In this document: in pieces, positions 47,724 to 62,614 of the stretch
Numbering within the stretch: position 1 is the stretch's first letter
How the letters are laid out: each line of letters starts with the position of its first letter
Source: Spiribacter roseus
GTDB taxonomy: Bacteria > Pseudomonadota > Gammaproteobacteria > Nitrococcales > Nitrococcaceae
Direction of reading: 5' to 3'
DNA length: 64,000 nucleotides
Assembly (NCBI RefSeq): GCF_002813635.1
Contig: NZ_CP016382.1
Location: 434,001 to 498,000 of the forward strand
Position numbers and translations under genes: made by a program
Notes under the pieces: generated by a model
Told to the model about the DNA's origin: nothing
What the model saw: the letters and a program-made list of their open reading frames with translations, nothing else
Database searches by the model: none

Positions 47724-49793
47724 CTAGAAGGCACGCTGCTGGCGGCGGAACTCGACCATTTTTTCCTGGGCGTCAATCGCCTCCTCAAGTCGGTTGATGC
47801 CCGCCTCGGGGAGCAGTCCGAAGAGCTGGATCATGATCTCAGCGGTGGTCAGCGAATCCCCCAGCGCGGTGTGACGCCCACCGACGCCCACCCCCAGCCG
47901 CCGGGCGACGCCTTCAAGGGTGTGCTCGCCGGTGTGGTCGTGCAGCAGGATGGACAGCAGCAGGGCGTCGAGCGTGGGATGATCAAAGCGCACCCCGCAG
48001 CGGCGCTGCCTGAGGCGCAGAAAGCGCATGTCGAAGGCGATGTTGAAGCCCACCAACACGGCGTCGCCGGCGAATGCATGAAAGCGCCGGATCACCTCGT
48101 CCACCGGCGGGGCATCGGCCACGTCTTCGTCATGAATCCCATGAATGCTTGATGCCAGCGCCGGGATCGGACGCTCCGGGTTGGCGAGTAGCTCGAAGGT
48201 CTCGCCGTGCATGACCCGCCCCTGGTGGATGCGCACGGCACCGATGGCGACGATTTCATCGCCATGACCGGGCTCGAGGCCCGTGGTCTCGCAGTCAAAG
48301 ACGACATAGTCGAGATCGCCGAGCCGGGTGTCGGCCGCCTCGCCCAGCGCCCGCACCGGCTCGGCCTCGTCGGCGGCGAAGTCGTAGTACTCGGGCCGCG
48401 CGGCGACCGGGGTGGGCGCCTCGGTCTTCGCCGGCGCACCGGGCAGTGGCAGTCGAAGCAGCGCCCGATGGGGCCGTGACAGGTCCGGCTGACTCCACAC
48501 GGTGGTGTCATGACGCTGCAGCACCTCGCGCAGGGTCACCGTCCCGCCGACATCATCGAGGCCCGCATCCAGCCACTCGTCGAGCTGATCGGGGCTGACG
48601 ACGTCGCCCGACCAGTTCATATCCAGATAGACCAGGCTGCCCTGGCCGCGTCCGGATACGGCGACGGCGCTGACCGCCAGGGTATCGGCCAGACGCATCA
48701 GCAGCGCCTCGATCACCTGGCTGAGCAGATAGGGTTCCGCGGACACCCACACATCGGCGCTACACTGCACCCGGGGCAGCCGGCCTGCCGCGGCGTTTTT
48801 CTTGATGCCGGCGATCAGGCTGCCGAGGTGCAGGTCCTCCAGCCGCCAGTTATCGGTGACCATCGAGGCGGTCTCATCGGACAGGTGCGCGAAGGCATCG
48901 GTCAGGCGTCGGGTCTCTTCATGCAGCATGCGCCCGAAGCGCTCGGCGTCCTCACTCATCTGCGCCTGCTGGGCCAGTCGCAGGCTTTCGCTGACGGTGC
49001 ACAGGCTGGTCAGCGGATCGCGCAACGACTCCACCGCCTCGCGCAGGCTCTGCTCGCGCCGCAGCACCGCCCGGGTCTGGCGCGAGACGTCGGTGAGGGT
49101 GATGACGAAGCCGTCGGTCCCCGGATCGTCGGTGATCAGCCGCGCCACCCGACAGCGCAGCAGTCGCTCGCCGCTCGCGGTCGCGCAGACCAGTTCGGTA
49201 TCGGCGTTGCTCGCGGCATCGGCGGAGGGATCGATCAGGCTCAGCGCATGCCGCAGCGGCCCGTCGTTGAGGACTTCATGCAGATAGCGCCCCAGACCCA
49301 GCGCCGGTTCGGCGTCCAGCAGCACGCGCGCGGTGCGGTTGTAGAGGGTGATGCGACCGTCGTCGCGGCAGACCACGACGCCTTCACGGATCTCGCGCAG
49401 GATGGTCTCGAGCCGGGCCTTGCGGGCTTCGATGCGGGTGGTCCAGGCCGAGGCGGCTTCTTCCATCTCGCGGCGACTGCGCGCCAGGGTGCCACCGAGC
49501 TGCTCGATGGTCTCGGGCAGGCGACCCAGCCAGTGCCGCGACGGCAGCTCCAGTCGATGGCCGGGGTTGGAGCCGGCGATTATCCCGGCCCCGCGCTCGG
49601 TGGCACTCAGCGGACGGGTCACGCGCCGATCCAGCAGCAGGCCGCCGATAAGCGGTGCCAGCCCCGCCACCGCACCGGCCAGCAGCGGATGCAGCCCACT
49701 CAGCAGGAATGCCGCGGGGCCAGCGAGCAGGGCGATGGCCGCTGTCGATCCCCATAGCCGCTTGCGCAGCCGCGGGAGCCGAAAGGCTCTCAC
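47724..49793 (-). CDS. Membrane-anchored PAS/kinase-like protein fused to DnaQ-type 3'-5' exonuclease
   Basis: 689 residues from GTG 49793. Order: two N-terminal membrane helices (about 15-55) and a HAMP-like linker, a PAS domain (about 130-220, EGVVVCRDDGRITLYNRTA), a segment resembling a histidine kinase DHp region (about 240-300), a poorly conserved ATPase-like part, then a DEDDh exonuclease (about 490-660). In the exonuclease VFDCETTGL carries Asp and Glu, FNIAFDMRFL the second Asp, and HTALGDSLTT the His and last Asp, so it looks active. In the kinase part the H-box reads VESLRDPLT with Glu255 in place of the phospho-acceptor His, and I find no clear N or G boxes. The gene lies two bases after a receiver-domain gene on the same strand. 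Substrate (DNA, RNA or nucleotide) is unknown. Confidence 0.82.
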   Translation of the reverse strand: MRAFRLPRLRKRLWGSTAAIALLAGPAAFLLSGLHPLLAGAVAGLAPLIGGLLLDRRVTRPLSATERGAGIIAGSNPGHRLELPSRHWLGRLPETIEQLGGTLARSRREMEEAASAWTTRIEARKARLETILREIREGVVVCRDDGRITLYNRTARVLLDAEPALGLGRYLHEVLNDGPLRHALSLIDPSADAASNADTELVCATASGERLLRCRVARLITDDPGTDGFVITLTDVSRQTRAVLRREQSLREAVESLRDPLTSLCTVSESLRLAQQAQMSEDAERFGRMLHEETRRLTDAFAHLSDETASMVTDNWRLEDLHLGSLIAGIKKNAAAGRLPRVQCSADVWVSAEPYLLSQVIEALLMRLADTLAVSAVAVSGRGQGSLVYLDMNWSGDVVSPDQLDEWLDAGLDDVGGTVTLREVLQRHDTTVWSQPDLSRPHRALLRLPLPGAPAKTEAPTPVAARPEYYDFAADEAEPVRALGEAADTRLGDLDYVVFDCETTGLEPGHGDEIVAIGAVRIHQGRVMHGETFELLANPERPIPALASSIHGIHDEDVADAPPVDEVIRRFHAFAGDAVLVGFNIAFDMRFLRLRQRRCGVRFDHPTLDALLLSILLHDHTGEHTLEGVARRLGVGVGGRHTALGDSLTTAEIMIQLFGLLPEAGINRLEEAIDAQEKMVEFRRQQRAF

Positions 49794-50290: not shown

Positions 50291-52177
50291 ATGAGCGACG
50301 ACACGGCCGATACCGACGCCTCGGTGGTGCGCGGATTTCTGGAGGCGCATGCGCCCTTTGACCGCCTGCCGCGGGCCCTGCAGCAGCATTTCCGCGAGCA
50401 TTGCGAGGTCTGCCGCTACACCGCCGGCACCGTCATCCTCGAGCCGTCGGTGGAGCCCGCCGGGTACTTCTACCTGATCGTCGACGGGCAGGTGCGCGCG
50501 GAGCGCCCCGGCGGCGAGCGCTTTGACATGGGCCCCGGGGATAACTTTCCCATGGCCGCAATGATCGGTCAGCGGGCCACGCGCACGGTCTATCGCGCCA
50601 GCACGCCCACCCAGTGTCTGCGCGTTCCCCGGACCACCTTCGAGCACCTCGTCAGCGAAAGCCCGCTGTTCCGCGACTATTGCCTGCGCGGGGTGAGCGG
50701 GCTGCTCGATCAGGTCCAGCAGGATATCCAGCACCGGGCCGCCGGCAATCTGGGCAGCGATACCACCATGGATACGCCGCTGGGAGAGCTGATGAACCGG
50801 CACCCGCTGACCTGCGAGGCGCATACCTCGGTGCGGGAGGCCGTGGCCACCATGCATGCGCGCAAGGTGGGCAGCGTGCTGGTCACCGACCCGGACGAGC
50901 GTCCGCAGGGCATCTTCACCCTGCATGACCTGCGGGGCGTCGTCGCCGAGGGCAGCCACCTCGACGAGTCGCTGGCGGCGGTGATGACCCGCGAGCCGGT
51001 CACCCTCGATACCCAGACCTATGCGTTTGAGGCGGTGGTGGAAATGGCGCGTCACCACATCCGGCACATGATCGTCACCGATCCGCAGGGCCGGCTCGCC
51101 GGTGTCATCTCCGAGCGCGACATCTTTGCCCTGCAGCGGATCAACCTGGTGCATCTGACCCGCTCGATCACCGGCGCCGAGGACGTGGACGCGCTGGTGC
51201 TGGCCCGCGGCCAGGTGGGGGCGCTGATCGATAGCATGATGGCCCACGGCGCCGGCGTTGAGCAGATCACCCGCATCATCACGCTGCTCAACGACCGCAC
51301 GGTGACCCGCGCCATTGAACTGGTCCTGGCCGAGCGCGGCGACCCCGGCGTGGCGTTTACCTGGATTGCCTTTGGCAGCGAAGGTCGACGCGAGCAGACG
51401 CGGGTGACCGATCAGGACAACGGGATTCTGTTTGACCCCGGCGATGAGACGCCGGAGGCGGTACGCGAGCGTCTGCTGCCGCTGGCACGGCGCATCAACG
51501 AGGTGCTCGACGCCTGCGGTTTTCCGCTGTGCACGGGCAATGTCATGGCGAGCAATCCGGGGCTCTGCCTGAGCTTTGCGGAGTGGGAGGCCACCTTTGG
51601 CCGGCTGGTGGCCAGTGCCACGCCGGAGAACGTGCTCAGCTCGACCATTTACTTCGATTTTCGGCCCGTGTGGGGGGATCTGGTCACCGGCGAGGCCCTG
51701 CAGCGCCGGGTGGTGGAGCTGGCGGCCGGCAACTCGGTCTTCCTGCACACCCTTGCGGCCAACGCCCTGGCCATCAAGCCGCCGCTCGGCGTGTTCCGGG
51801 ACTTCGTCACCGATCGCGATGCCGATGGTGTGCATCGACTGGATCTCAAGGTGCGTGGCCTGACCCCGTTCGTGGATGCCGCCCGGGTGCTGGCCCTGCA
51901 GGCGGGGATCGCCGATGGACACACCCAGACGCGTCTGCGCGAGCTGGCCCGCGCGGGGGTGCTGAGCGCCGAGGATGCCGGGGCGTTCGAGCGCTCGTTC
52001 GCCTTTGTGCAGCTGCTGAGGATGCGCGAGCACCAGCAGCAGTCGGTGACCGGCGACACCATGGGGAACCGGCTGGATCCGGAGAACGTCAATCCGATGG
52101 ATCGGCGGATCCTCAAGGAGGCCTTCCGCGAGGCGCGGCGGCTTCACAAAAAGCTCGAAGTGCGGTTCCAGCTATAA
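50291..52177 (+). CDS. cNMP-binding/CBS/DUF294 nucleotidyltransferase-like protein
   Basis: 628 residues. Order: cyclic-nucleotide-binding-like domain (about 15-140), two CBS repeats (about 155-290), DUF294 nucleotidyltransferase-like domain (about 310-440) with FGSEGRREQTRVTDQDNGIL, and DUF294_C helical domain (about 480-625). The GSxxRxE...DxD pattern recalls GlnD-type nucleotidyltransferases. The family is often found beside sodium:acetate symporters and DnaQ-like exonucleases, as here. A role in sensing adenylates and controlling carbon uptake is inference. The ATG has GGGAGA upstream; the gene ends at a bidirectional terminator. Confidence 0.85.
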   Translation: MSDDTADTDASVVRGFLEAHAPFDRLPRALQQHFREHCEVCRYTAGTVILEPSVEPAGYFYLIVDGQVRAERPGGERFDMGPGDNFPMAAMIGQRATRTVYRASTPTQCLRVPRTTFEHLVSESPLFRDYCLRGVSGLLDQVQQDIQHRAAGNLGSDTTMDTPLGELMNRHPLTCEAHTSVREAVATMHARKVGSVLVTDPDERPQGIFTLHDLRGVVAEGSHLDESLAAVMTREPVTLDTQTYAFEAVVEMARHHIRHMIVTDPQGRLAGVISERDIFALQRINLVHLTRSITGAEDVDALVLARGQVGALIDSMMAHGAGVEQITRIITLLNDRTVTRAIELVLAERGDPGVAFTWIAFGSEGRREQTRVTDQDNGILFDPGDETPEAVRERLLPLARRINEVLDACGFPLCTGNVMASNPGLCLSFAEWEATFGRLVASATPENVLSSTIYFDFRPVWGDLVTGEALQRRVVELAAGNSVFLHTLAANALAIKPPLGVFRDFVTDRDADGVHRLDLKVRGLTPFVDAARVLALQAGIADGHTQTRLRELARAGVLSAEDAGAFERSFAFVQLLRMREHQQQSVTGDTMGNRLDPENVNPMDRRILKEAFREARRLHKKLEVRFQL

Positions 52178-52227: not shown

Positions 52228-53982
52228 TCAGGAAGCGCGCGGGACCCGGATGCTCTCCACCAGTTCCTGGATGTTCTCCGGCGGCGGCGCCGTTGCCCGT
52301 GACACGAGCGATGCAACGATGACGTTGATCAACGCGCCGATGGCACCGATGGACTGCGGTCCGATCCCGAACAGCCAGTGCTCCGGCGTGTCCGGCAGCA
52401 TGTTGGTGCCAGGGATGAAGAACCAGCCCTTGAAGATGAACACATACACCAGGGTGAAGCTGAGACCCGAGAGCATGCCCGCGATGGCGCCGGCACTGTT
52501 CATGCGCCGGTTGAAGATGCCGAGCATGAGAACCGGGAACAGCGACGAAGCCGCCAGCCCGAAGGCCAGTGCAACGACCTGTGCCGCGAACCCTGGTGGG
52601 TTCAGACCCAGGTAGCCTGCCACAAGGACCGCCACACCCATTGCGATTCGAGCCGCTAGCAATTCGCTCTTCTCGCCGATCTTCGGGTTGATGACGCCCT
52701 TGATCAGGTCATGGGAGACCGATGAGGAGATCGCCATGAGCAGTCCTGCCGCCGTGGACAGGGCCGCTGCAAGGCCACCCGCGACGGTCAGGGCGATCAC
52801 CCAGTTGGGCAACTGCGCGATCTCGGGGTTGGCCATGACCATGATGTCACGGTCAACGGTCAGCTCATTGCCTTCCCAGCCATAGGACTCGGCCGTGGGC
52901 TCGAAGGCCGGGTTGTCGCTGTTGTAGTACTGGATACGGCCGTCATCATTCTTGTCGTCCCAGGCGAGAAGACCGGTCTCTTCCCAGCGCGAGAACCAGC
53001 CCGGCACGTTCTCGTACGCCAGGTTGCCGTCTTCGGCCCCGATCTCGCCCGGCTGGACGGTGTTGATCAGGTTGTAGAACGACATCGCGCCCACGGCCGG
53101 TGCCGTGGTGTAGAGAATGGCGATGAAAATCAACGTCCATCCGGCCGACAGTCGGGCATCCCGGACCCGCGGCACCGTGAAGAAGCGCACGATGACGTGG
53201 GGCAGACCGGCTGTACCGATCATCAGCGACATGGTCAGGAAGAACATGTTGAGCGTGGTGCCCTTCATCGCCGTGTACTGCGAGAAGCCAAGATCAACAA
53301 GGATGTTGTCGAGCTTGTTCAGCAGATAGGTGCCATCGGCGACGGTCCCGCCCAGACCCAGCTGTGGTGCCGGATTGCCGGTGATGGCCAGCGATATGAA
53401 GATGGCCGGAATGGTATACGCGAAGATCATCACGCAGTACTGGGCGATCTGGGTATAGGTGATGCCTTTCATGCCGCCGATCACGGCATAGAAAAAGACG
53501 ATCGCCATCCCGATGAAAAGCCCAAATTCGTAGCTCGTCTCAAGAAAACGCGAAAACGCGACGCCAATGCCCTTCATCTGACCGATGACATAGGTGATCG
53601 AGGCGACGATCAGGGCAATGACCGCAATGACGCGGGCCGTCTTGGAGTAGAACCGGTCGCCGATGAATTCGGGAACCGTGAACTTACCGAATTTGCGCAG
53701 ATAGGGCGCAAGTAGAAGTGCCAGGAGCACATAGCCGCCGGTCCAGCCCATCAGGTAGACGGAGGCGTCATAGCCCAGAAAGGCGATCAGACCGGCCATT
53801 GAGATGAACGATGCCGCGGACATCCAGTCCGCTGCGGTGGCCATGCCGTTGGCAATGGGGTGAACCCCCTTGCCTGCGACGTAGAATTCGCCGGTGCTTC
53901 CGGCCTTGGCCCAGATCGCGATACCGATGTACAGGACGAAGGTGGCGCCGACAATCAGATAGGTAGTGAGTGCGAGATCCAT
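52228..53982 (-). CDS. Sodium:solute symporter (acetate-type, VC_2705 subfamily)
   Basis: 584 residues with about 13 membrane helices, of the SSS family and close in type to ActP. The N-terminal EFYVAGKGVHPIANGMATAADW and the helix-three YVLLALLLAPYLRKFGKFTV region are family features. A large extracytoplasmic loop around residues 320-385 contains DKNDDGRIQYYN (52921-52956), an EF-hand-like pattern. It pairs with the DUF4212 small subunit 15 bases upstream. The likely substrate is acetate or another short carboxylate, based on the family and on acs nearby; pyruvate is not excluded. AGGGGAA precedes the start. Confidence 0.88.
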   Translation of the reverse strand: MDLALTTYLIVGATFVLYIGIAIWAKAGSTGEFYVAGKGVHPIANGMATAADWMSAASFISMAGLIAFLGYDASVYLMGWTGGYVLLALLLAPYLRKFGKFTVPEFIGDRFYSKTARVIAVIALIVASITYVIGQMKGIGVAFSRFLETSYEFGLFIGMAIVFFYAVIGGMKGITYTQIAQYCVMIFAYTIPAIFISLAITGNPAPQLGLGGTVADGTYLLNKLDNILVDLGFSQYTAMKGTTLNMFFLTMSLMIGTAGLPHVIVRFFTVPRVRDARLSAGWTLIFIAILYTTAPAVGAMSFYNLINTVQPGEIGAEDGNLAYENVPGWFSRWEETGLLAWDDKNDDGRIQYYNSDNPAFEPTAESYGWEGNELTVDRDIMVMANPEIAQLPNWVIALTVAGGLAAALSTAAGLLMAISSSVSHDLIKGVINPKIGEKSELLAARIAMGVAVLVAGYLGLNPPGFAAQVVALAFGLAASSLFPVLMLGIFNRRMNSAGAIAGMLSGLSFTLVYVFIFKGWFFIPGTNMLPDTPEHWLFGIGPQSIGAIGALINVIVASLVSRATAPPPENIQELVESIRVPRAS

Positions 53983-53997
53983 GTCGAATTCCCCTCG

Positions 53998-54264
53998 TTA
54001 CTTTTCGTACACGTCGTATTTTCGATCCAGCGCGTTCATGCGGAACACGTAGACGAAAATCAGGACGATGAACGTGTAAATCGCGCCCTGCTGGGCGAAC
54101 CAGAAGCCGAGGGGATAGCCCGCAATCATGATGTTGTTGAGCAATGGGGCGAGAATGATGCCCAGTCCATAAGAGACGAAAAACCAGATGATCAGCAATG
54201 TGATCAGCAGTCTGACGTTCTCCTTCCAGTAGGCCATGGCGGCCTGTTCCTGATTAGAAGCCAT
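53998..54264 (-). CDS. DUF4212 small subunit of sodium:solute symporter
   Basis: 88 residues, two membrane helices (about 18-40 and 58-76). AYWKENVRLLITLLIIWFFV and GYPLGFWFAQQGAIYTFIVL are typical of the DUF4212 family, which is encoded just before VC_2705-type symporters. GGAGGAG stands before the ATG. It should act as an obligate or modulatory membrane partner of the large subunit. Confidence 0.9.
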   Translation of the reverse strand: MASNQEQAAMAYWKENVRLLITLLIIWFFVSYGLGIILAPLLNNIMIAGYPLGFWFAQQGAIYTFIVLIFVYVFRMNALDRKYDVYEK

Positions 54265-54437: not shown

Positions 54438-56375
<1,938 letters not shown>

Positions 56376-56415
56376 GCCGTTTTCTCCTCCTGAATGACAG
56401 CGTTCGACGTCTGTT

Positions 56416-59009: not shown

Positions 59010-60530
59010 CTAGAACAGTCCCATGGGGGACTCGCTGTAACTCACCAGCAGGTTTTTGGTCTGCTGGTAGTGCGCGAGCATCATGAGGTGGTTTTCGCGA
59101 CCGAAGCCTGACTGCTTGTAGCCACCAAACGCCGCGTGCGCGGGGTAGAGGTGATAGCAGTTGGTCCAGACACGGCCGGCCTGAATGCCGCGGCCCATGC
59201 GATAGGCCGTGTTGACGTTGCGCGTCCACAGGCCCGCGCCGAGTCCGTACAGCGTGTCATTGGCGATACTCAGGGCGTCATCCCGATCGTCAAAGCCGGT
59301 GACCGAGACCACCGGGCCAAAAATCTCTTCCTGGAAGACGCGCATGCGATTGTCGCCCTCGAAGACGGTGGGCTGAACGTAGTAGCCACCGCTCAGTTCG
59401 CCGCCCAGGTCCAGACTCTCACCGCCGGCGAGGACTCTGGCACCCTCCTGCCGGCCGATATCCAGATAGGCCATGATTTTTTCCAGCTGATCGCGCGATG
59501 CCTGCGCGCCCACCATCGTCTCGGTATCAAGCGGATTGCCCGTTTTAATGCGGGATACCCGGTCAAGCGCAGCATCCATGAAGTCGCCATAGAACGAGCG
59601 CTGCACCAGTGCCCGTGACGGGCAGGTGCAGACCTCACCCTGATTGAGGGCGAACATCGCGAATCCCTCGAGGGTTTTCTCCCGGAAGCCGTCATTGGCG
59701 GCAAAGCAGTCAGCAAAAAAGACGTTGGGTGACTTACCGCCCAGCTCCAGCGTAACCGGAATCAGGTTTTCCGATGCGTACTGCATGATCAGTCGCCCGG
59801 TGGTGGTCTCTCCGGTGAAGGCCACCTTGCTGATCCGTGGGTTCGAGGCAAGCGCCTTGCCCGCCTCGGCGCCGAAGCCGTTGACGATATTGAGCACACC
59901 GGCCGGCAGCAGGTCGGCGATCAGCTCGGTGAGCATCAGAATGCTGGCCGGTGTCTGTTCGGCGGGTTTGAGTACCACACAGTTGCCGGCCGCCAGCGCC
60001 GGCGCCAGCTTCCACGTGGCCATCAGGATCGGGAAATTCCAGGGAATGATCTGACCGACCACACCGAGGGGTTCATGGATCTGATAGGACACCGTGTCGT
60101 CGTCGAGCTCGCCAAGTGATCCTTCCTGGGCACGGATGACGCCGGCGAAATAACGGAAGTGATCGATCGCGAGCGGCAGATCGGCCGCCAGCGTTTCCCG
60201 GACCGGCTTGCCATTCTCCCAGGTCTCCGCCACGGCAAGCGCCTCGAGGTTGGCCTCCATGCGATCGGCGATGGTGTTCAGAATGACGGCGCGCGCCGCC
60301 ACCGGCGTCTTGCCCCAGGCCGCCTTTGCCGCGTGGGCTGCATCCAGCGCCTTTTCAACGTCGGCCGCCTTGGAGCGCGGAATGCGGCAGAAGGTCTGCC
60401 CGGTGACCGGTGTGGGATTATCGAAGTACTCGCCGTCGAGCGGGGCCTGCCAGTCCCCGCCAATGAAGTTCTGATATTCGCTTTTGAAATGGACGATGGC
60501 GTTCGTGCTGCCGGGATTGGCGTAGATCAT
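59010..60530 (-). CDS. NAD-dependent aldehyde dehydrogenase (ExaC/AldB type)
   Basis: 506 residues, ALDH superfamily. Catalytic Glu in [10 protein letters not shown] (about 267) and Cys in [11 protein letters not shown] (about 301) are intact, with the Asn in [10 protein letters not shown]. The sequence type, with [13 protein letters not shown] near the N-terminus, matches acetaldehyde dehydrogenases of the ExaC/AldB group. It would oxidise acetaldehyde or related aldehydes to acids. GGAGGAG precedes the start. Expression is predicted from a sigma-54 promoter under the divergent activator. Confidence 0.93.
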
Positions 60531-60587
60531 GGTCTCTCCTCCGTTTTTATGGGTCGGGACGGGATGCGTGCCCGCACCGATACACCA

Positions 60588-60602
60588 GCAAGATCTGCGC
60601 CA
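60588..60602 (-). promoter_or_regulatory. Sigma-54 (-24/-12) promoter of the aldehyde dehydrogenase gene
   Basis: Minus strand TGGCGC, five bases, TTGC, followed by T: a near-perfect match to TGGCAC-N5-TTGC. The expected start is near 60576, giving a leader of about 46 bases before the ATG at 60530. Confidence 0.8.
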
Positions 60603-60707
60603 ATTGATGGCTGCGCGCCCGGCGCTTGCGTCGCGCCCGGGACTGGGCGATCGTGCTATTCAACCTGTCCGCTAGAGACGGGTGGCCGGTGTGCCGTTTT
60701 AGAACAA

Positions 60708-60728
60708 TCTGTCGCGGACTGCGACAGA
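60708..60728. promoter_or_regulatory. 21-bp palindrome, probable activator-binding site (UAS)
   Basis: TCTGTCGC (60708-60715), spacer GGACT, GCGACAGA (60721-60728). Its centre lies about 116 bases upstream of the -24 element, the usual distance for a sigma-54 enhancer site, and just before the activator's own start codon, where binding could also repress that gene. Confidence 0.65.
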
Positions 60729-60739
60729 GGAGGAGGGCG

Positions 60740-62614
60740 ATGGACGAGCGGCCGTTTAACGATCGCGCCCGGCTTGCCGGCGCGCGGCGTCAGCTGTTGG
60801 CGGGCGAGCGGACGCCGGCCGGTGTGGCGGATGGGGTGGCGGCCTCCTGGCAGCGGGTGGCGGCGGCCGGGCTCTCACCGCGGCAACAGGCGGCTGATGC
60901 CGTTTTTGATGCGGCGGCGTTGCGGGCGGCCCGGGCCGACAACGAGTCGCTGATCGCGCTGGCGCTGCCGGAAATCGAAAACCTGTATCACCAGATCAGC
61001 GGCAGCAACAGTGCCGTATTGCTCTGCGATGCGCACGGCACGATCCTCGAGCGCCACGGTGACCCGCATTTCCATGCCCGCAGTCAGCGCGTTGCACTGG
61101 CACCGGGTGCATGCTGGGGCGAGCCGGTGCGCGGGACCAACGCCATCGGCCTCGCGCTGGCACAGGGCGGTCCAGCGTCGGTCCACGGCCCCGAGCATTA
61201 TCTGCAGTGCAATACTTTCCTGACCTGTGCGGCGGCGCCGATCCGTGACACGGCGGGGACCGTGATCGGCCTGCTGGATGTCTCCGGGGATCAGTCGGCC
61301 CGCCAGATCCATGCCCTGGGGCTGGTGCGGATGGGCGCACGAATGATCGAAAACCGCTGGCTCACGGCGGAGTTCGCCGACAGCTTCCATCTTCATCTCC
61401 ATGCGCGGCCGGAGCTGCTGGGCACCCTCAGCGAGGGGATTCTCGCGCTCGATGGTGATGGACGGGTATTGGCCCTGAACGAGGTGGCGCGCAGCTACTT
61501 CGGCGACGACTGCGTGGGCGAGCGCTTCGAAGGGCTCTTTGAGGAGACGTTCGAGGGCTTGCTGCGCAGTGACGAGGCGATGCCGCTGCGGCGGACCCTC
61601 AGCGGGATCATGACCTGCCTGCGCCTGGTCGCGCCGCCGTCGCGCATCCACGGGTCGACGCCGGCGGCTGCGCTGTCCGATGACACGACGTTCGAGCGCT
61701 TGCACGCGGGGGATGATGCAGTGGCGGACACACTGCGTCGGGCTCACCGTGTCTTCGCCCGAAACATCCCCCTTCTGATCGAGGGCGAGACCGGCACCGG
61801 TAAGGAATGGGTGGTGCGCGCCCTGCACGCGAAGGGGCCGCGGGCGAACGGGCCGATCGTCGCCGTCAACTGCGCGGCAATCCCCGAGAGCCTTGCCGAG
61901 GCCGAACTGTTTGGTTATGCCCCGGGGGCATTCACCGGCGCAAACCCGCGCGGTGCCGAGGGTCGCATCGCCGAAGCCAATGGCGGAACACTTTTCCTTG
62001 ACGAAATCGGCGACATGCCGATCGCGCTTCAGACCCGACTGCTGCGGGTCCTCCAGGAGCGCACCGTCCTGCCGGTGGGTGGCGGTCAGCCCCGGGCGGT
62101 GGACTTTGCGCTGGTCAGCGCCACTCATTGCGATCTGGCAGCCCGGGTCAAGGCCGGTGCGTTTCGCGCCGACCTTTACTACCGGCTGTGCGGATTGCGG
62201 ATCGAATTGCCGCCGCTGCGCCGGCGCAGCGATCGTGAGGCGCTGATCGACCGGCTTCTGGCCGAGGAGGATCCCATGGCGACGCTTTCGCCGGATGCCC
62301 GCGCCCGGCTTCTCGCCTATTCATGGCCCGGTAATCTGCGTCAGTTGCACAGCGTCATGCAGACGGCGCTGGCGTTACGCCGACCGGGCGCGCCGGTGAC
62401 ACGGGCGGATCTGCCTGATGTCCTCCTGGAGGCGGACGTCGGAAACATGTCGGCTGAGGCCTGTCCGGATACCGACCTTCGGGCCATGGAACAACGCCAT
62501 ATTCAGGCGGCACTGGTGGAGCACGGCGGTAACGTCAGTCGCGCCGCGCAGTCGCTGGGCATCAGTCGCAGCACGCTCTACCGGCGCATTGGTTCCTCCT
62601 CCCGGGGAAAATGA
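60740..62614 (+). CDS. acoR: Sigma-54-dependent transcriptional activator, AcoR type
   Basis: 624 residues from ATG 60740 with AGAGGAGGAGGG upstream. Order: N-terminal helical part, GAF sensor domain (about 75-200), PAS-like region (about 210-290), AAA+ domain (about 325-530) with Walker A GETGTGKE, the sigma-54-contacting GAFTGA loop near residue 398 and Walker B GTLFLDEIGD, then a Fis-type helix-turn-helix (about 575-620, SRAAQSLGISRSTLYRRI). All residues for sigma-54 activation look intact. It is divergent from the dehydrogenase, which is its likely target. The symbol refers to the family, not to proven acetoin sensing. Confidence 0.9.
   Translation: MDERPFNDRARLAGARRQLLAGERTPAGVADGVAASWQRVAAAGLSPRQQAADAVFDAAALRAARADNESLIALALPEIENLYHQISGSNSAVLLCDAHGTILERHGDPHFHARSQRVALAPGACWGEPVRGTNAIGLALAQGGPASVHGPEHYLQCNTFLTCAAAPIRDTAGTVIGLLDVSGDQSARQIHALGLVRMGARMIENRWLTAEFADSFHLHLHARPELLGTLSEGILALDGDGRVLALNEVARSYFGDDCVGERFEGLFEETFEGLLRSDEAMPLRRTLSGIMTCLRLVAPPSRIHGSTPAAALSDDTTFERLHAGDDAVADTLRRAHRVFARNIPLLIEGETGTGKEWVVRALHAKGPRANGPIVAVNCAAIPESLAEAELFGYAPGAFTGANPRGAEGRIAEANGGTLFLDEIGDMPIALQTRLLRVLQERTVLPVGGGQPRAVDFALVSATHCDLAARVKAGAFRADLYYRLCGLRIELPPLRRRSDREALIDRLLAEEDPMATLSPDARARLLAYSWPGNLRQLHSVMQTALALRRPGAPVTRADLPDVLLEADVGNMSAEACPDTDLRAMEQRHIQAALVEHGGNVSRAAQSLGISRSTLYRRIGSSSRGK

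Follow-up and report, generated by a model that had tools for sequence, protein, structure and literature searches.

The pseudokinase DivL of Caulobacter binds the phosphorylated single-domain receiver DivK and passes its state on, its PAS domains conferring phospho-selectivity (PMC5361649, PMC4211667; all papers cited here are drawn on in excerpt). The DivL authors asked whether further two-component systems run in reverse (PMC5361649). In Pseudomonas putida, the CBS protein gene pp_0354 and the RNase_T exonuclease gene pp_0353 belong to one operon, which MxtR/ErdR (CrbS/R) controls. The pp_0353 mutant grew late on pyruvate, and the authors suggested mRNA decay; P. aeruginosa has homologues of PP_0353 next to actP and yjcH (PMC9927547). 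Here we analysed a 64,000-nucleotide stretch of Spiribacter roseus DNA (assembly GCF_002813635.1, contig NZ_CP016382.1, positions 434,001 to 498,000; hereafter the window), in which one fusion gene encodes membrane helices, a PAS domain, a histidine-kinase module that has lost its kinase residues and a DEDDh exonuclease, and is directly preceded by a gene for a lone receiver (REC). The source assembly is one contig of 1.93 Mb with a completeness of 99.93%, and among named relatives Spiribacter and Ectothiorhodospiraceae metagenome-assembled genomes (MAGs) are closest to it. We tentatively propose that the receiver gates the exonuclease of this membrane protein, so that the pair would form a reversed two-component system of the DivL kind.

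The window protein resembles DivL (PDB 4q20) in its PAS, DHp and catalytic/ATPase (CA) fold, in the replacement of the phospho-acceptor histidine and in an arginine three residues further on; in DivL the corresponding Arg553 is required for docking (PMC4211667). DivL also works with a single-domain receiver, and a lone REC gene adjoins the fusion gene. The two differ in that DivL has a tyrosine in place of the histidine and the kinase CckA as its target (PMC5361649, PMC4211667), whereas the family of the window protein mostly has a glutamate there, together with two membrane helices, lost ATP-binding residues and a fused exonuclease. The membrane-PAS-DHp-CA order is that of WalK/VicK, from which the window protein is set apart by its lack of the phospho-acceptor histidine and of the G1 aspartate and by the extra exonuclease. 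The exonuclease shares its fold and active-site residues with those of PolC and Pol III epsilon but is joined to a sensor scaffold instead of a polymerase. PP_0353, compared by description only, is likewise an RNase_T-family exonuclease beside a CBS-domain gene in an acetate/pyruvate regulon; no sensor part is mentioned for it in the excerpt (PMC9927547). Assignment of the window exonuclease to the PP_0353 group rests on family and neighbourhood.

The open reading frame occupies exactly the interval that an earlier note, made from the sequence alone, had given for it; that note named no strand, and the gene lies on the minus strand (Table 1). It contains no internal stop and no frameshift, including any that would separate sensor from nuclease, and there is no in-frame start upstream. 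From the N terminus the protein comprises membrane helices, a long helix, the PAS domain, the DHp hairpin, the ATPase-like domain, a linker and the exonuclease. The two membrane helices and the PAS domain of the earlier description were both recovered, the former as hydrophobic stretches near residues 13-55 and as helices 7-31 and 36-74 of an AlphaFold2 model, the latter as a Pfam match. The model, built with 74 sequences (mean predicted local distance difference test score 86.1, predicted template-modelling score 0.43), contains the kinase fold; its individual domains are well defined and their relative placement is not.

A sample of 370 genomes of the window's class yielded full-length relatives in 20 (its own genome and one congener included; the protein of G338 is in two pieces), and MAGs labelled with other phyla have them as well. 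Relatives were compared in an alignment of 50 rows and in a set of 80 loci from named genomes, the best 80 of at least 432 confirmed candidates in a genome scan. By title the 80 loci belong mostly to Alpha-, Beta- and Gammaproteobacteria; the others include Magnetococcales and single MAGs labelled Nitrospirota, Acidobacteriota, Spirochaetia and Desulfosarcina; contig ends lower the neighbour counts among them. The two sets overlap, since L097 to L101 and L103 are genomes already in the 50. L002 and L017 were left out of the first alignment and L063 out of the second, and alignment A2 omits L130, L133, L139, L147, L156, L167 and L176; because L167 and L176 have the lowest DHp scores, percentages from A2 lean towards conservation. 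The family is widespread in bacteria and seemingly unstudied. Among the plasmid records listed (15 of 31), those that bear a name give relatives only generic nuclease names: 'exonuclease domain-containing protein', '3'-5' exonuclease' or 'DNA polymerase III subunit epsilon'. The parts are known already; what did not appear among the matches listed from the open-licence literature that we searched, which is only part of the literature, is a description of their combination, a fusion of dead kinase and nuclease output with a lone receiver. One genome, G031, carries three fusion copies (L031, L038, L039), each beside DUF294-type genes.

The register of the phospho-acceptor site was set by a hidden Markov model (HMM) alignment that included two intact kinases from relatives; their SHELRTPL motif falls opposite this segment of the window protein and places the phosphorylated histidine on Glu255, as the earlier note had read it. 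Histidine occupies this position in 0/50 rows (window included) and 0/80 loci, and glutamate in 58 of the 80; the H-box loss is therefore fixed across homologues. The same alignment puts Ala363 and Arg367 at the N-box asparagine sites and Trp394 at the G1 aspartate. Tryptophan stands at the G1 site in 72 of 74 rows and Gly396 is kept in 73, whereas an asparagine at either N-box site was seen in only two. The window protein thus lacks the H-box histidine, the N-box asparagine and the G1 Asp-x-Gly of active HisKA kinases, and the combination named beforehand as telling against a dead kinase, a conserved histidine elsewhere in the DHp helix with an intact HATPase domain, was not found, there being neither a histidine at the aligned position nor intact ATPase motifs. 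Residues next to the lost histidine are not kept either (position 256 mostly Gly, 42/74; position 259 mostly Ala, 31/74). The suggestion that ATP-binding boxes are missing stood for the chemistry and fell for the fold, as an ATPase domain is present. A Pfam scan of the window protein gave neither HisKA nor HATPase at E ≤ 10, and in 2 of 10 genomes searched a HisKA match below its cut-off lies inside the orthologue (G006, E 1.1e-5; G005, E 8e-4). By contrast, a 74-row family profile matched the solved kinases VicK (best match; residues 38-459, E 6e-26), ThkA (E 1e-14) and DivL (residues 247-458, E 7e-8), and Foldseek with the model agreed on the kinase fold, with WalK as first row and DivL at E 1.4e-8. 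A histidine-kinase fold of DHp hairpin and CA domain is therefore seen by profile, model and Foldseek; since the pseudokinase part is invisible to Pfam alone, profile and fold comparisons are needed to find it. That the sensor scaffold is kept while kinase chemistry is gone holds across the family. Loss of the kinase residues is a long-standing family trait and, being common to all 80 loci, no recent decay.

The C-terminal domain matches Pfam RNase_T at residues 497-653 (E 2.1e-30) and carries all four acidic residues and the histidine of a DEDDh active site, Asp500, Glu502, Asp588, His641 and Asp646, conserved in 48, 48, 48, 48 and 49 of 50 rows, respectively. The intact exonuclease of the earlier note was thereby borne out and, judged from these residues, it is apparently functional. 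Its closest solved folds are the PolC exonuclease (Z 23.8; 196 residues aligned at a root-mean-square deviation of 2.4), followed by Pol III epsilon (Z ~20). Both are nucleic-acid exonucleases; the alternative of a nucleotide hydrolase found no support of its own. All rows listed by this structural comparison were exonucleases, and the kinase part was judged from the profile and Foldseek matches. In two relatives that lie beside an acetyl-CoA synthetase gene (acs) and an intact receiver, the exonuclease has lost its active-site residues (L055:6936-8999) or is missing (L057:6852-8054), as though the pseudokinase by itself were useful there.

The stop codon of the receiver gene lies 2 bases before the GTG start of the fusion gene, a spacing that suggests coupled translation. 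A same-strand lone REC gene is directly upstream of the fusion gene in 66 of the 80 loci at a spacing of -7 to 182 bases, and only seven other lone RECs occur in the same loci (1103 kb). Among these 66 receivers the phosphosite aspartate is present in 64 and the conserved lysine in all; the two exceptions are L097, from the window's clade, with asparagine, and L101 with glutamate. The window receiver, like those of L005, L006 and L007, has Asn53 and hence no phospho-acceptor aspartate. Because the second acid of the pocket is already altered in eight of the nine sister receivers seen, the decay of the receiver was stepwise. A further receiver, L035:10077-10433 (G016), has glutamate at the phospho-aspartate site within an Asp-His-Gln pocket and is a possible phospho-mimic. 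The earlier note had overlooked the lone receiver, the cluster of DUF294, symporter and acetyl-CoA synthetase genes, and the transporter-type kinase of relatives; together these point to a receiver protein as input, and not to a PAS ligand alone.

The kinase fold is retained under purifying selection. Ratios of nonsynonymous to synonymous substitution rates (dN/dS) between the window and its three closest relatives (four pairs) were 0.02-0.04 for the exonuclease, 0.03-0.12 for DHp, 0.05-0.16 for CA and 0.05-0.10 for PAS; within the clade with the receiver asparagine, REC itself gave 0.06-0.12 despite the lost phospho-aspartate. Neither the fusion gene nor the receiver behaves as a pseudogene. 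Against the sister L008 the values were higher, at 0.21 for DHp and 0.19 for CA.

A transporter-type kinase, matched over both halves, is found in 39 of the 80 loci, its first half 50-60% identical to that of L040. The L040 kinase shows 11 hydrophobic peaks, and its first half matches the solved histidine kinase 10ed (E 6e-72); HisKA and HATPase are present in it and in the kinases of L042 and L068. It thus combines a transporter-like N-terminal half with an active-type kinase. Pfam SSF was below cut-off in the L042 and L068 kinases and was not listed for L040. In joining a transporter-like first half to an intact kinase it resembles the SLC5/STAC kinases CbrA, CrbS and RpuS. CbrB is an NtrC-type regulator. 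The partners of CrbS and RpuS are LuxR-type regulators (PMC9100948). Unlike in these three systems, the SLC5-like kinase is associated here, by gene order, with a pseudokinase-nuclease and its lone REC.

Two such kinases occur in the window's order, the operon's own (924 amino acids, L040) and a second of 980 amino acids, 34% identical to it in the first half, which adjoins its own NtrC-type regulator. The operon's own type was not found in the window's genus, where matches were partial and 35-42% identical. Genomes G003 to G012 have such a partial match (10/10), and the nine receivers seen there (that of G008 was not seen) keep the aspartate. G000, G001, G002 and G013 gave no transporter-type kinase match at E 1e-60, and a search with the 980-amino-acid kinase gave only partial matches in them, none before position 551. 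Exactly these four genomes have the receiver asparagine. In a 17-row tree of the fusion protein, which does not include G009, they form one clade (100/100), so that the coincidence counts as one loss and not four. Kinase and regulator sit between acs and a GluQ-like gene in G011, G009 and G006; the window and G001 have acs and the GluQ-like gene side by side, 40-odd bases apart. The best matches to the regulator in the four genomes are genes elsewhere, 44-48% identical. The joint loss of aspartate and kinase fits a receiver whose supply of phosphate was failing, but does not identify the kinase that had fed it.

In the receiver-gated mechanism that we propose, the DHp/CA module would neither make nor pass phosphate and would serve as a docking and dimerisation platform for the upstream lone REC. 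In many relatives the adjacent SLC5-like kinase would set the phosphorylation of REC; binding of REC, together with the PAS domain, would then change the helical bundle and switch the C-terminal exonuclease, whose substrate would probably be RNA or short oligonucleotides, while the cell uses acetate or pyruvate. The window's clade has neither a transporter-type kinase nor the phospho-aspartate of REC, so REC should act there without phosphorylation, as a fixed or otherwise regulated subunit. The +3 arginine, Arg258 in the window protein, is kept in 70 of 75 loci, a count of its presence only. In a post hoc comparison Arg258 was lost in 3 of 11 loci without REC and in 2 of 64 with it (p 0.02), and the three lowest DHp scores of 75 were all in loci without REC, also post hoc. 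These 75-locus comparisons omit L130, L147, L156 and the contig-edge loci L102 and L145.

Several observations weigh against receiver gating. The +3 arginine is also usual in active kinases and is present in both intact kinases aligned. Covariation over 110 REC/pseudokinase pairs (weighted 90) did not single out DHp, the clade signal dominating: DHp entered 2 of the top 50 covarying pairs, while it makes up 78 of 648 positions (12%). Overall, the DHp profile scores alike in loci with REC (64) and without it (11; p 0.2), and 8 of the 11 have an ordinary score. The kinase lost by the window's clade is not of the type found in the REC operon, and since the 980-amino-acid kinase lies beside an NtrC-type regulator of its own, its link to REC is indirect. 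The dN/dS of REC against L008, 0.21-0.38, indicates that the constraint on the receiver changed on the way to the window's clade. The exonuclease is lost in 2 of the 50 rows (active-site residues in L055, the whole domain in L057), and the pp_0353 mutant had no growth defect on acetate (PMC9927547).

The covariation result, which gives no docking signal, and the 11 of 75 loci that keep the fusion gene without an adjacent REC would suit a second explanation, in which gating would fall to PAS alone, with a metabolite or redox cofactor bound to it, the pseudokinase would be no more than a dimerising linker and REC would act elsewhere, for example on the DUF294 protein. A 502-amino-acid relative without DHp and CA, L087:1456-2964, has a possible N-terminal PAS (PAS_10, only at E 0.11), and short exonucleases without a sensor part lie beside DUF294. 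We nevertheless find this explanation doubtful: nearly every aligned relative retains DHp and CA, purifying selection on them is close to the PAS level, and REC is tied to the fusion gene more often than DUF294 is (66 versus 52 of 80 loci). The presence of the transporter-type kinase in 39 of the 80 gene orders, with the membrane anchor of the AlphaFold2 model, could instead mean that the transporter-kinase system uses the pseudokinase as a sink, phosphatase or assembly partner and that the nuclease is constitutive and merely tethered to the membrane. We consider this improbable, since the window's clade has no transporter-type kinase and still keeps pseudokinase and REC under selection, and a phosphatase role was set aside on account of the unconserved residues beside the lost histidine. 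That kinase and receiver are drifting into pseudogenes in a small genome is very improbable, because, although the window REC lacks the phospho-aspartate and one pocket acid, its dN/dS against L008 is raised and the fusion gene is frameshifted in G009 and strongly diverged in its middle in G018, the window frame is open, the histidine is missing from all 80 loci, and the dN/dS within the asparagine clade (0.02-0.16 over PAS, DHp, CA and exonuclease) speaks so strongly against decay that we set it aside. The G009 gene (L063:7657-9725) is split near the end of the pseudokinase part, through sequencing error or real loss.

Encoded beside a lone receiver, the family is a broad candidate for reversed flow, and as a nuclease output is easy to assay, the question raised for DivL becomes directly testable. 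Such a system could add a post-transcriptional arm to acetate/pyruvate regulation, for which a putative nuclease of unknown mechanism, linked to a growth phenotype, is already on record (PMC9927547). A bolder generalisation, which we regard as rather unlikely, is a widespread second reversed two-component flow without a transcription factor, in which a transporter-kinase would signal to a lone receiver, the receiver to a pseudokinase and the pseudokinase to a membrane exonuclease, so that monocarboxylate sensing would directly control RNA or oligonucleotide turnover; the Spiribacter-like clade would have lost the phosphate step and would run on a phosphorylation-independent receiver, a natural experiment in rewiring.

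Acetate genes lie near the receiver (Table 1). DUF294 genes occur in 52 of the 80 loci, and of 35 loci from the window's order and family, 29 have a symporter or acetyl-CoA synthetase gene within the fetched stretch. An exonuclease fused to CBS-DUF294 without a sensor part occurs in two genomes of the class (L089, L092; Pfam evidence for L089), and a short exonuclease adjoins DUF294 in L091, L093 and L096. The window neighbours, the CBS-DUF294 fusions and the P. putida pair point to an exonuclease that goes with acetate genes, within a receiver-gated reading that as a whole we hold only as a possibility.

Table 1. Features of the fusion gene and its surroundings, in window positions.
Feature	Coordinates	Strand	Basis or remark
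Fusion gene: membrane helices, PAS, pseudo-histidine-kinase, DEDDh exonuclease	47724..49793	-	689 amino acids, GTG start
Membrane helices, residues ~7-55	49629..49775	-	Hydropathy and AlphaFold2
PAS domain, residues 134-240	49074..49394	-	Pfam PAS_4, E 4.9e-6; model strands and helices at 138-235
Pseudo-DHp helical hairpin, residues 237-313	48855..49085	-	Model; profile match to solved kinases including DivL; HMM alignment to intact kinases
Glu255 codon, phospho-His position	49029..49031	-	No His in 50 or 80 rows; register from HMM alignment
Degenerate CA domain, residues 316-455	48429..48848	-	Trp394 at G1 Asp site; Ala363 and Arg367 at N-box Asn sites
DEDDh 3'-5' exonuclease domain, residues 491-664	47802..48323	-	Pfam RNase_T, PolC exonuclease fold, active-site residues
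Lone receiver (REC) gene, 124 amino acids	49796..50170	-	Pfam Response_reg, E 1.7e-24; Asp-His acidic pair, Asn53 at phosphosite, Lys105 kept
Divergent DUF294 protein (cNMP-binding, CBS pair, nucleotidyltransferase)	50291..52177	+	Conserved neighbour
VC_2705-family sodium/solute symporter	52228..53982	-	TIGR03648, E 1e-254
Symporter small subunit (DUF4212)	53998..54264	-	Family match
Acetyl-CoA synthetase	54438..56375	-	Pfam AMP-binding and ACAS_N
Gap between acs and GluQ-like gene (tRNA-synt_1c)	56376..56415	.	40 bases; three sister species hold NtrC-type regulator and transporter-type kinase there

Near acs, at window positions 59010-62614, an aldehyde dehydrogenase gene adjoins a divergent GAF/sigma-54 activator, which we take to be AcoR-like.

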